Assembly (NCBI GenBank): GCA_013151445.1
Contig: JAADIG010000137.1
Span: 23,815-87,814 of the forward strand
Length of the DNA: 64,000 bases
From: Actinomycetota bacterium
GTDB lineage: Bacteria > Actinomycetota > Acidimicrobiia > Spongiisociales > UBA5794
Reading direction: 5' to 3'
Shown here: one piece after another, positions 19,717 to 56,024 of the stretch
Layout of the letters: each line of letters opens with the position of its first letter
Numbering within the stretch: position 1 is the stretch's first letter
The notes under the pieces: generated by a model
Database searches by the model: none
What the model saw: only the letters and a program-made list of their open reading frames with translations
Told to the model about the DNA's origin: nothing
Translations under genes and position numbers: made by a program

Positions 19717-19779
19717 CCCCGTTCTTGTGACGTTTCGCTTGAATAGTCCTATTCAAGCGTCACAAGAACGGGGGTTTTT
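19717..19779 (+). terminator. Intrinsic terminator of the HU gene
   Basis: A 15-base outer stem (19717-19731 with 19759-19773) encloses a 10-base inner stem (19737-19746 with 19749-19758) and is followed by TTTTT at 19775-19779. The outer arm contains GTTCTTGTG, resembling the arm signature of the other long intergenic palindromes in the window. Confidence 0.85.
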
Positions 19780-36304: not shown

Positions 36305-36360
36305 TCCTGTTCTGGCGTCCATTTGGGCCGTATACCGCCCAAATGGACGCCAGAACAGGA
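36305..36360. repeat. Perfect 24-bp-arm palindrome, TGGCGTCC family copy 2
   Basis: The arms 36305-36328 and 36337-36360 are perfectly complementary over 24 bases with an 8-base loop. The arm starts TCCTGTTCTGGCGTCC and shares TGGCGTCC with copies at 7883-7940 and 53734-53779. It lies 8 bases past the stop of the DUF2342 gene; no T-run follows on either strand. Confidence 0.8.
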
Positions 36361-50549: not shown

Positions 50550-50576
50550 GCCGCCCGATGTTTTTCACCGGGCGGC
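50550..50576 (+). terminator. Hairpin between livM and livK
   Basis: GCCGCCCG (50550-50557) and its complement (50569-50576) form an 8-base stem around an 11-base loop with T-rich content. It may adjust relative expression of the binding protein and permeases. Confidence 0.55.
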
Positions 50577-50620
50577 ATGGAAAGAAAACGAAACAAACGA
50601 AACAAGAAATGGGAGGTTGG

Positions 50621-52078
50621 ATGCACCTCAAGAAAAAAATGGTCGTCTTCGTTTTTGTCTTCGCGATGATTGCCGCCGCATGCGGCGGTAGTACTGCGAC
50701 AACAACGACGGCTGCACCGGGTGGCGGTGGAGACACCACCACGACGGCGCCGCCGGCGACAACAACAACAACGTCTGGTCCGACCACAACAGTGGCCCCT
50801 CCAGCAGAAGAAATTAAGATGGACCTCGGTGTCACTGACACTGAGATCAGGATTGGCTTGCTGGCCGACCTTACCGGTCCTTTCGCTGGTCTGACTGTTG
50901 ACATCGTCGACGCTCAGGTCGCGTACTGGGAAGATGTCGTAAATGCGAACGGTGGTATTGCCGGACGCATGGTGGTTCCCGTCATTGAGGACACCGCCTA
51001 CGACGTTGTCCAGCACGGCGAGAAGTACACCAAGATCGTTGATCAGGTAGTTGCGTTCTCGAACTCAACCGGTTCGCCGCACACTGCCTCAATCCTTGAG
51101 AAGCTCAAGGAAGACAACATCTTGGCGATTCCGCTGAGCTGGTACTCCGGTTGGGCAGATCCGTCTTACGATGGCGGGCTGACCTTCGAGCAGGGTACGA
51201 ACTACTGTCTCGAAGCGATGAACGTCGTTCAGTGGCTGGCCGAAAAGCACGAAGCGGAAACCGGCAACAAGCCGACGATCGCCATCGTGACCCGTGCCGG
51301 TGACTACGGACAGGATGCCGCTGCCGGCGCCAAGTACGCAGCCGCCGAGTTGGGCCTCGATGTTGTGTACGACGGTGAAGGCACCATCGTGCGTGGACAG
51401 GACAAGACCCCGATCATTTCAGCCATCCTGGGTGCAAACCCGGACTGGGTCTGGATCACCGCAGCTCCTTCGGAGACTGGTGAGATCATGGGTGGTGCGG
51501 TTTCTCAGGGCTTCACCGGTCAATGGACAGGCTCCGTGCCTTCCTACGACTTCCGTATGCTCGATTCGGCATTGGCTCCTGCTTTGCAGGGCTTCTACTG
51601 GCAGACGGCATACAACGTGACCTGGGGTACCGACGTGCCGGGCATGCAGCAGATCTCTGAAGTTCTGACTGCCCGTTACCCGGACCGCCGTCCGTCCGAT
51701 GCCTTCGTCATCGGTTGGAACGAGGCCGTGTCCATGGAGCAGATCCTTCGTACTGCCGCCGCTAACGGCGATCTCACCCGTCAGGGTGTTATCGACGCGG
51801 CGAACAGCATCGATACGATTGCGTTCAATGGAACAGGTCCTGACTTCAACTACAAGGGTGAACCGAACGACTATGTCGTTCGCGAGATCTACATCCTGAA
51901 GCCGAACGCGGAGCGGTACGCCGCTGCGGGTGGAGCAGATCAGAAGTTGTCCGATGGTCTCGGAACCACTGGTTCCGACCTGGTTGAGGGTCCATTCACT
52001 GGGTCCCTTGCTGCCAACTTCAACTTCACCGGCGCATGCTGGACCGAAGCTGCTGGCAACACAATCGGAAACGGTTAA
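50621..52078 (+). CDS. livK: ABC transporter substrate-binding lipoprotein (LivK/amide-type)
   Basis: A 485-residue solute-binding protein. The start MHLKKKMVVFVFVFAMIAAAC has a signal peptide with lipobox Cys, then a Thr-rich linker (TTTTAAP-like repeats). The body is a periplasmic-binding fold type 1: IRIGLLADLTGPFAG, DTAYDVVQHGEKYTKIVDQV, IAIVTRAGDYGQDAAAGAKY and SDAFVIGWNEAVSMEQIL. This group binds amino acids, amides or aromatic acids; specificity cannot be assigned. ATG at 50621 has GGGAGG 4 bases upstream. Confidence 0.88.
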   Translation: MHLKKKMVVFVFVFAMIAAACGGSTATTTTAAPGGGGDTTTTAPPATTTTTSGPTTTVAPPAEEIKMDLGVTDTEIRIGLLADLTGPFAGLTVDIVDAQVAYWEDVVNANGGIAGRMVVPVIEDTAYDVVQHGEKYTKIVDQVVAFSNSTGSPHTASILEKLKEDNILAIPLSWYSGWADPSYDGGLTFEQGTNYCLEAMNVVQWLAEKHEAETGNKPTIAIVTRAGDYGQDAAAGAKYAAAELGLDVVYDGEGTIVRGQDKTPIISAILGANPDWVWITAAPSETGEIMGGAVSQGFTGQWTGSVPSYDFRMLDSALAPALQGFYWQTAYNVTWGTDVPGMQQISEVLTARYPDRRPSDAFVIGWNEAVSMEQILRTAAANGDLTRQGVIDAANSIDTIAFNGTGPDFNYKGEPNDYVVREIYILKPNAERYAAAGGADQKLSDGLGTTGSDLVEGPFTGSLAANFNFTGACWTEAAGNTIGNG

Positions 52079-52093
52079 CGACTCACTGAGTTC

Positions 52094-52123
52094 GTGGGGG
52101 GTGCGACGTGTCGCACCCCCCAC
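52094..52123 (+). terminator. Strong hairpin between livK and livF
   Basis: GTGGGGGGTGCGAC (52094-52107) pairs perfectly with 52110-52123 around a 2-base loop, within the spacer after livK. Partial termination would keep the binding protein in excess of the ATPases. Confidence 0.6.
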
Positions 52124-53733: not shown

Positions 53734-53779
53734 TTTTGGCGTCCAAAAACGCATAATGCTGCGTTCTCGGACGCCAAAA
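53734..53779. repeat. Intergenic palindromic element, TGGCGTCC family copy 3
   Basis: TTTTGGCGTCC (53734-53744) and its perfect complement (53769-53779) form the outer stem; an inner AACGCA/TGCGTT stem (53748-53753, 53760-53765) extends it. The element lies 18 bases after the livG stop and marks the end of the paa-liv block. Confidence 0.7.
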
Positions 53780-54695: not shown

Positions 54696-55094
54696 CTAGG
54701 TGTCCTGTTTGATCAGGACGGTTCCGGTGAATGCGCCGATGAGCCTGTCGCCAGCGGTGATGTCGCTGCGGTAGGTAGCGAGTGAGCGACCCCGACGAAG
54801 CTCGGTGCATCGGGCTGTGATTGTGTCGCCCGCGGTGGCGGACCCTGAATACACCATGTGGACGTCGATCGCAACGGCTTGCGGTCCCGCAACGTTGCTA
54901 GCAATCGCAAAGGCGATGTCGGCGAGGCCGTAACTCACGGCCCCGTGAAGGGTGCCGTGGACATTGCAGTGCGCGTCGGTCACGGTGAGCTCGATGACGA
55001 TCACGCCGTCAGTGTCCGAGACGAATCGCGCACCGAGGTTCTGGGCGTAGGTGTCGCCATTGAATAGTGTCGCGGCTCTGGAGGTCATGTCCAT
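54696..55094 (-). CDS. PaaI-like hot-dog thioesterase
   Basis: A 132-residue hot-dog-fold protein. NVHGTLHGAVSYGLADIAFAIASN is the thioesterase core with the catalytic acidic residue in the following helix, and GDTITARCTELRRGRSLATYRSDI fits the PaaI family. E. coli PaaI hydrolyses stalled hydroxyphenylacetyl-CoA esters and is part of phenylacetate catabolism, so its presence near paaGHJN may be meaningful, but such thioesterases are common. ATG at 55094 is chosen since the longer frame runs into a palindrome. Confidence 0.78.
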   Translation of the reverse strand: MDMTSRAATLFNGDTYAQNLGARFVSDTDGVIVIELTVTDAHCNVHGTLHGAVSYGLADIAFAIASNVAGPQAVAIDVHMVYSGSATAGDTITARCTELRRGRSLATYRSDITAGDRLIGAFTGTVLIKQDT

Positions 55095-55129: not shown

Positions 55130-55181
55130 GGGTTCTAGCGTAACTGGGGGCCATATATGGCCCCCAGTTACGCTAGAACCC
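55130..55181. repeat. Perfect 52-bp palindrome
   Basis: Bases 55130-55181 form a perfect palindrome with 26-base arms and no loop, centred on ATATAT. The arm begins GGGTTCTAGCGTAAC and resembles the 36305-36360 arm (14 of 20 positions). It sits between two minus-strand genes, upstream of the thioesterase. Confidence 0.85.
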
Positions 55182-55184
55182 AAA

Positions 55185-55215
55185 GGGAGGGTGCCCTGTG
55201 GTTGGGCACCCTCCC
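55185..55215 (-). terminator. Hairpin at the end of the secreted-protein operon
   Basis: GGGAGGGTGCCC (55185-55196) and its complement (55204-55215) form a perfect 12-base stem with a 7-base loop. On the minus strand a short TTT follows. It lies 26 bases past the stop of the coiled-coil gene. Confidence 0.75.
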
Positions 55216-55241
55216 TCTGCTCGTGGTGGACCGAAGGTGCG

Positions 55242-56024
55242 TTACCCGTCCGTGGTAACGGTGTCGGTCACGGCTGTGTCGATGGCACCATCGGGTGCTG
55301 CATCGCGCAGTGCCTGGATGGCAGCCCTGGCGTTCTCACGGGCAGCCTTGAGCTGGGCGTGTGACGCCCGCAGTGCCTTGCGGTTCGCTTCGAGTGTCGC
55401 TTCAGCCGGGTCGGGCCAGTCTGCGGCATCGAGACCGATCACGTTGCCGGCTACTGGTGCCGCAAGTCGGGCACCCTCGGCCAGGTTTGCTTCGGCTTCG
55501 TTCAGCAAGCGGGCCGCCTCGGCGACGTCCCACCCTGCCTCTTCGGCTCGGGCGATCTTCTCACCAATCTTGGCAAGACCCGCTTCGAACCTCGGCACGT
55601 TGGCACCGATCTTGTCGCTGATCGCAACCATGTGGGTCTTTGGTGCGATCACCAGATACACCCGATAGTCGGTGGCGATAAGCGGTACGAGCTCACGGAG
55701 CTGTTCGTACGTTGTTGCGGCCTCGATCTCCTGACCCAACATCGTCAGCCCACGGGCGGCGTCGACGTAGTCGGCGAAGAGCTTGTCCTTATGACCCAAG
55801 GTCATCGTCTCGGATTGCGAGACCTTCTCGGTCAGGCGATCAAGCGTCGCAAGACGCCGGTCGATCGCTTCTGCGGCCCGTTCCTTGATGCTTTCGATCG
55901 AGCGGCCGTTGTCGACAACTTGCTCTCGTGGTGTAGCGTCGCGTTCCTGCGCCGTGGCGGCTGCGGGGAGTGCGACCACGACGGCGAACGCCGCGATGAC
56001 CGCAATAAGTCGTTTCTTCTTCAT
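55242..56024 (-). CDS. Secreted alpha-helical protein of unknown function
   Basis: A 260-residue exported protein with a signal peptide (KKKRLIAVIAAFAVVVALPAAATA, cleavage near AQE). The mature part is almost entirely alpha-helical with charged heptads (AAEAIDRRLATLDRLTEKVSQ, AGLAKIGEKIARAEEAGWDVAEA, AHLQLKAAREN-like end) and lacks cysteines and enzyme motifs. I do not recognise a family. The ATG overlaps the stop of the upstream lipoprotein gene (ATGA), so the two exported proteins are made together and may interact. Confidence 0.7.
   Translation of the reverse strand: MKKKRLIAVIAAFAVVVALPAAATAQERDATPREQVVDNGRSIESIKERAAEAIDRRLATLDRLTEKVSQSETMTLGHKDKLFADYVDAARGLTMLGQEIEAATTYEQLRELVPLIATDYRVYLVIAPKTHMVAISDKIGANVPRFEAGLAKIGEKIARAEEAGWDVAEAARLLNEAEANLAEGARLAAPVAGNVIGLDAADWPDPAEATLEANRKALRASHAQLKAARENARAAIQALRDAAPDGAIDTAVTDTVTTDG

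Follow-up and report, generated by a model that had tools for sequence, protein, structure and literature searches.

A perfect 52-bp palindrome in an Actinomycetota genome as a probable solo copy of a mobile palindrome-nuclease element

Positions 55130-55181 of the DNA analysed here (a 64,000-nt stretch, referred to as the window) form a palindrome, and the question raised by the locus is where such a structure comes from and what keeps it symmetric. Direct checking of the sequence bore out the first-pass annotation, which had reported a 52-bp palindrome free of spacer and mismatches: the two 26-nt arms are 100% complementary and are separated by 0 nt. Only ~1e-11 such sites are expected per window (~64,000/4^26), and a chance origin was rejected. 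The palindrome was also correctly placed between two minus-strand genes, those of a 4HBT thioesterase and of a 260-aa protein (Table 1), and beside a separate hairpin. This hairpin is real, with 16-nt arms containing one mismatch, a 7-nt loop and a perfect inner 13 bp, and has the appearance of a common terminator-type structure. Of 40 copies of the repeat family described below, 5 have another hairpin within 30 nt, versus 24/781 random intergenic positions. Elsewhere in the window, a perfect hairpin with 14-bp arms (GTGGGGGGTGCGAC-GT-GTCGCACCCCCCAC) was observed at 52094-52123, between a substrate-binding-type ORF (50558-52078) and an ABC-type ORF at 52094.

The genome containing the window (G000; 3.07 Mb, 159 contigs) was compared with G002 ('Bacterium BMS3Bbin02'), an independent metagenome-assembled genome that represents a sister species and is its nearest named relative, with G001, a member of the same genus, and with further genomes; these are mostly metagenome assemblies, and the other members of the order are mostly labelled Acidimicrobiia. 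A BLAST search of G000 with the site as query recovered additional copies, dispersed and 79-92% identical, and almost all of them matched on both strands. The pattern TTCTNGCGT-N18..32-ACGCNAGAA gave at least 25 strict copies in G000, 18 in G002 and 13 in G001; copies were present in 40/138 genomes of the order, with hundreds of related copies, and the reversed control gave 0. The palindrome is one member of a dispersed repeat family and not an isolated structure.

Perfect spacer-free palindromes are a classic artefact of assembly or chimera formation, and the division of the G000 assembly into 159 contigs would be in keeping with fold-back of reads at this site. The alignment with relatives proposed in the first-pass annotation argues otherwise, in that the independent G002 assembly keeps the palindrome at the orthologous site with two compensated pair changes; so do the perfect copies at many other loci, the hundreds of related copies across the order set against none for the reversed control, and the presence of the architecture described below in a closed genome (G153). 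An artefact is refuted for the palindrome family, and we give it practically no probability at this site.

The family core is almost constant in length (46-49 bp). Pairing continues six positions beyond the 46-bp core with varying base pairs and then ends, so that it spans ~58 bp, and the centres measure 0-8 nt. Subfamilies A, B and C have common ends and different centres, a fourth, D, has the ends GTTCTTGTGACG, and the end motif TTCT[TGA]GCGT is conserved in the order. One copy of each subfamily is carried by the window (Table 1).

Table 1. Palindromes of the window and features next to the subfamily A copy
Feature	Position	Strand	Remarks
Subfamily A palindrome, solo copy (the site under study)	55130..55181	.	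46-bp core 55133-55178 = TTCTAGCGTAACTGGGGGCCATATATGGCCCCCAGTTACGCTAGAA
Terminator-like hairpin (context, outside the element)	55181..55219	-	3' side of gene 55242-56024; retained in G002
4HBT thioesterase gene (neighbour, context)	~54696-55094	-	Pfam PF03061
260-aa protein gene (neighbour)	55242-56024	-	no Pfam match
Subfamily B palindrome, solo	36305..36360; core 36310-36355	.	~26 B sites in G000
Subfamily C palindrome, partly decayed	53734..53779	.	ends TTTT/AAAA; absent at G002 orthologous site
Subfamily D palindrome, solo	19717..19773	.	CCCCGTTCTTGTGACG...CGTCACAAGAACGGGG; absent at G002 orthologous site

When 45 copies were aligned, 91.1% of cells over 29 column pairs were complementary. 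Compensatory changes in both arms, which had been named in advance as the sign of selection on the structure, were found in abundance: 20/29 pairs were altered on both sides, with 215 compensated cells versus 70 in shuffles (0/500 as high). Almost all arm changes were double and G-U intermediates were rare, which suggests that symmetry is kept at the DNA level, whether by dimer recognition or by arm-to-arm correction, and not through selection on an RNA hairpin. The idea of a selected structure therefore stood in part: the arms are kept with compensation, both in the family and in the G002 orthologue, but selection specific to this locus was not borne out, the site being one copy of a dispersed family of which several sister copies are degenerate or reduced to scars in the sister species.

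Maintenance as transcription terminators or RNA-stability hairpins, through selection on RNA structure, was weighed on the same data. The RNA of the palindrome plus the hairpin beside it has a folding energy of -84 kcal/mol (z -14), simple gene calls place 37/40 of the G000 copies between genes, and 13/34 classifiable copy-bearing gaps are convergent versus 45/342 background gaps in that genome. By eye, neither strand shows a clear T-run after the palindrome. The double changes with few G-U intermediates, the conservation of primary sequence in the end motif across the order, and the flanking of a single gene family by cognate copies, one of them upstream of its start, all speak against this account; an RNA hairpin was rejected as the main constraint, and we regard the explanation as very improbable.

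The flanked gene was recognised from pairs of same-subfamily palindromes ~1 kb apart that enclose an ORF of ~305 aa, on G000 contigs C149 (subfamily A) and C77 (D) and on G002 contigs C22 (B) and C201 (A); the complete palindrome-nuclease gene-palindrome unit measures ~1.0-1.1 kb. The palindrome under study is of the same subfamily as those around the nuclease on C149, the D copy of the window is of the type that flanks the nuclease on C77, and the cognate nuclease of subfamily B is found in the sister species, on C22. By Pfam, the ~305-aa protein carries AbiEi_4 at its N-terminus (PF13338, above or just below the cut-off in nuclease proteins) and DUF559 / REase_MTES_1575 at its C-terminus, and a Y1 match was absent. 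In an AlphaFold model (pLDDT 90.2, pTM 0.68) searched with Foldseek, the N-half folds like AbiEi (6y8q, E 1.4e-7), and the C-domain matched the EDxHD homing endonuclease I-Bth0305I (3r3p, TM 0.72 by target, probability 1.00) and Vsr (1vsr, probability 1.00); the E-values of the nuclease domain are weak (0.016 and 0.09, above 0.01), so that its assignment leans on the probability, the TM-score and the Pfam match. The gene product is predicted to combine an AbiEi-like DNA-binding N-half with a Vsr/EDxHD homing-endonuclease-like C-domain. Residues E206, D239, E250, D252, H257 and D266 are invariant in 30 nuclease sequences, and a dN/dS of 0.11 between G000 and G002 for the nuclease of the A unit indicates strong purifying selection on this one gene.

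The association was quantified at 109 distinct nuclease loci, mostly from the same order. A palindrome lay within 200 nt before the gene at 63/107 loci (shuffled, 2/107; control genes, 46/981) and around the stop codon at 53/105 (shuffled, 0/105; control genes, 65/981). The de novo scan of G000 covered 717 kb of the 3.07 Mb in contigs partly picked for carrying copies, which inflates the control-gene frequencies there. The 5' and 3' flanks of a locus matched each other in 65 of 103 cases, versus 8/824 cross-pairs. Spacing was regular, the 5' palindrome ending a median of 50 nt upstream of the start codon and the 3' palindrome beginning at a median of -6 nt relative to the stop codon, and palindrome similarity tracked nuclease similarity (Mantel r=0.30, 0/999 permutations as high). 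No flanking palindromes were recognisable at about a third of nuclease loci, mostly of distant members.

Some loci depart from the simple arrangement. Two tandem palindromes stand at one or both sides of the nuclease at L190, L191, L195 (genus g22), L212 and L371. The loci L203, L204, L208, L285 and L287 (family f6 and relatives) form a nuclease clade lacking recognisable flanking palindromes; among them, the nuclease genes of L285 and L287 are 94% alike up to the stop codon, and L285 also has its downstream flank in common with L203, a pattern hinting at gene replacement. At L223 and L224 (genomes G043 and G028) the 5' and 3' nuclease flanks are strongly alike, strict palindromes not being called at both ends, and L223 carries a GGAACCCAGGGTTC-type repeat.

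The nuclease profile matched 154/397 sampled Actinomycetota genomes; DUF559/AbiEi-domain proteins are thus common in the phylum and are usually uninformatively named. In its other classes and families, matching flanks were found at 20/44 loci versus 5/528 cross-pairs. The palindromes of other classes are entirely different (e.g. GAACTTCGGGTGATTAGTGTCGCCATAGCGACACTAATCACCCGAAGTTC in G153), each nuclease lineage having its own, and the closed single-contig genome G153 contains one palindrome-nuclease-palindrome unit and ~15 dispersed cognate copies. Among the genomes of the order, the TTCT pattern and a close nuclease (E<=1e-60) tended to occur together: 32 had both, 8 the palindrome only, 7 the nuclease only and 91 neither, as raw counts of genomes that are not independent. 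The 13 palindromes of G001 (e.g. L141:9813-9875) belong to subfamilies of its own, and this genome has no nuclease at E<=1e-10; G000 has the ~26 B copies without a B nuclease. Viral contigs and plasmids held weak relatives only (5 partial viral, 1 plasmid), and an origin in phages or plasmids was rejected on these few matches. One member of the nuclease group, L304 (CAMBEL010000035.1), lies on a contig labelled as a Bifidobacterium breve MAG; the other named matches of its group are mostly Acidimicrobiia, and the contig is possibly mis-binned.

Comparison of genomes showed that the palindromes and the units they bound vary in presence. The A unit is common to G000 and G002 (76% over 4.1 kb); both palindrome and gene are missing from the corresponding G001 site. 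G000 and G027 belong to different families; their D units are 74% identical between the outer palindrome edges and have unrelated flanks. The palindrome under study is shared with G002, and two other copies of the window are absent from that genome (Table 1); one G001 copy has no counterpart in G000, at one site where G000 and G002 share an A copy G001 carries an unrelated palindrome, and several other copies are degenerate or represented by a scar only in G002. Many copies occupy conserved orthologous sites, so movement is not frequent.

These data bear on whether the AbiEi-nuclease could be a domesticated, host-serving DNA-binding factor, with the dispersed palindromes as regulatory or chromosome-organising sites and the flanking copies autoregulatory. 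The strong purifying selection on the nuclease and the compensated changes in conserved orthologous copies would suit such a role, as would the autoregulation of AbiEi-type proteins via paired 23-bp inverted repeats: the promoter of AbiEi contains two of these, separated by 3 bp and bound by the protein, and the 23-bp repeats bound by Rv2827c come in pairs no more than 131 bp from its start (PMC7319586). Autoregulation, however, needs no second palindrome at the stop codon, and a host function is at odds with the patchy distribution, the different palindrome in each lineage, the presence, absence and decay at orthologous sites, the unit-wise homology between families at unrelated sites, and the retention of palindromes without a nuclease in G001. 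We consider domestication unlikely.

Somewhat more doubtful still is a MITE- or REP-like origin, in which non-autonomous palindromes are moved by an unidentified transposase and the nuclease is a trapped passenger. In its favour, an amidase-like and germane-domain gene pair is also framed by palindromes in both G002 and G000, at different loci (L152:2335-4426 of G002 contig C265 and L188:667-2726 of G000 contig C89). In G002 two B palindromes surround this 2-kb pair, and the corresponding G000 site (contig C89, 3617-3676) bears a solo B palindrome in place of the two-gene cassette; the G000 homologue (73% over 1.9 kb) lies elsewhere, with C-type palindromes at both ends, one of them cut by the contig end. 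From this cassette it appears that the palindromes may carry or exchange other DNA besides the nuclease gene. Passenger status is difficult to reconcile with the recurrence of one gene family, at a fixed distance from cognate palindromes on either side, across dozens of lineages whose palindromes are unrelated. Target-site duplications were likewise not found at 53 solo copies, where direct repeats of 3-5 nt at equal offsets were near expectation and repeats of at least 5 nt occurred at 3/53 versus 1.2 in shuffles.

The palindrome at 55130-55181 is in our judgement probably a solo copy of a mobile palindrome-nuclease gene-palindrome element. This reading is drawn from the architecture, the flank statistics, the fixed spacing, the lineage specificity, the solo copies, the mobility of the unit, the protein folds and the precedents of AbiEi and I-Bth0305I; its architecture, recurrence, solo copies, joint arm change, purifying selection and unit-wise presence or absence between genomes are directly supported, and the nuclease itself would bind, cut and mobilise the palindromes. 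Counted against it are the lack of target-site duplications, the third of loci without palindromes, the nuclease-free copies (G001, and B in G000), the infrequent movement, the palindrome-framed non-nuclease pair in G002, and the fact that near-identical units were not seen at two loci of any one genome.

In the proposed mechanism, a dimer of the encoded protein would read the palindrome, each ~23-bp arm being contacted by one AbiEi-type winged-helix half, and the palindrome 50 nt before the start codon may also serve as an operator. The Vsr/EDxHD-like C-domain would nick or cut at or near the palindrome, repair or replication would place further copies at new sites between genes, either of the palindrome by itself or of palindrome and gene together, and arm-to-arm repair would keep the palindrome symmetric. 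Solo copies would be non-autonomous offspring, or remnants after recombination of two flanking palindromes, and would decay with time, as in the sister species. I-Bth0305I has been reported to form a dimer on a target almost 60 bp long (PMC3943268). The two half-sites of ~23-29 bp here, placed ~50 nt before the start codon, would fit a palindrome read by a protein dimer that cuts nearby.

On balance, though by no large measure of confidence, we favour an undescribed mobile element distributed across the Actinomycetota, composed of an AbiEi-fused Vsr/EDxHD nuclease and the perfect, lineage-specific palindromes that frame it, without a known transposase or recombinase, and spreading these palindromes either by themselves or together with genes enclosed by them. 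Palindromes at the flanks of DUF559/AbiEi nucleases were not described in the literature searched, which lay outside bioRxiv preprints and most subscription journals, and the system is provisionally regarded as new. If the reading is true, it accounts at once for a large number of genes and intergenic hairpins that have lacked an explanation, and the co-divergence of protein and target in dozens of natural pairs makes recognition and symmetry maintenance testable.

Among known systems, integron attC, telomere-resolvase and parS-like sites were dropped as candidates, the copies here being dispersed, of several families and tied to one gene family. MITEs and solo IS ends are similarly short, dispersed intergenic inverted repeats that are partly present or absent between relatives, but the present repeats are palindromic through their centre, and an insertion sequence bearing these ends, from which they might derive, was not found; a MITE with target-site duplications was rejected, none being detected at solo copies. 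AbiEi antitoxins and Rv2827c-type autoregulators share the N-terminal fold and an inverted pair of ~23-bp half-sites upstream of their own gene. They differ in that the protein described here is fused to a nuclease domain and its cognate repeats are also downstream and dispersed. An AbiEii (DUF1814) toxin gene was not next to the nuclease at the loci examined, where the tested neighbours were DUF3352, PanB, molybdopterin oxidoreductase, acyl-CoA dehydrogenase and sigma factor genes, and a type IV toxin-antitoxin pair was rejected for these loci. EDxHD/Vsr-like homing endonucleases such as I-Bth0305I resemble the element in predicted catalytic fold and in being small genes carrying their own endonuclease, and the long (~60 bp) target bound by a dimer corresponds to the target length and dimer reading proposed here; unlike I-Bth0305I, the present gene lies outside an intron or intein, is framed by two complete palindromes and encodes an AbiEi-like N-half.

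The REPtrons, in which REP palindromes are associated with RAYT / TnpA-REP transposases (PMC2817692, PMC3733652, PMC8266576), share the dispersed intergenic palindromes, the cognate copies flanking one dedicated nuclease gene, the lineage specificity and the many solo copies. Their enzyme is a HuH Y1 transposase, whereas here it is an AbiEi-like protein with a Vsr/EDxHD nuclease of PD-(D/E)XK type. REPs are stem-loops of 20-40 bp in which a GTAG or CGTC tag is left unpaired at one end (PMC3733652); the present palindromes are 46-58 bp with centres of 0-8 nt, their ends are paired (TTCT...AGAA), and CGTC, where present, lies within the stem. Copy numbers are in the tens rather than the hundreds. 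Identity with RAYT/REP was rejected on the enzyme and the tags (PMC3733652), and the element, if the reading is correct, would be a second, enzymatically unrelated solution to the REP/RAYT role.
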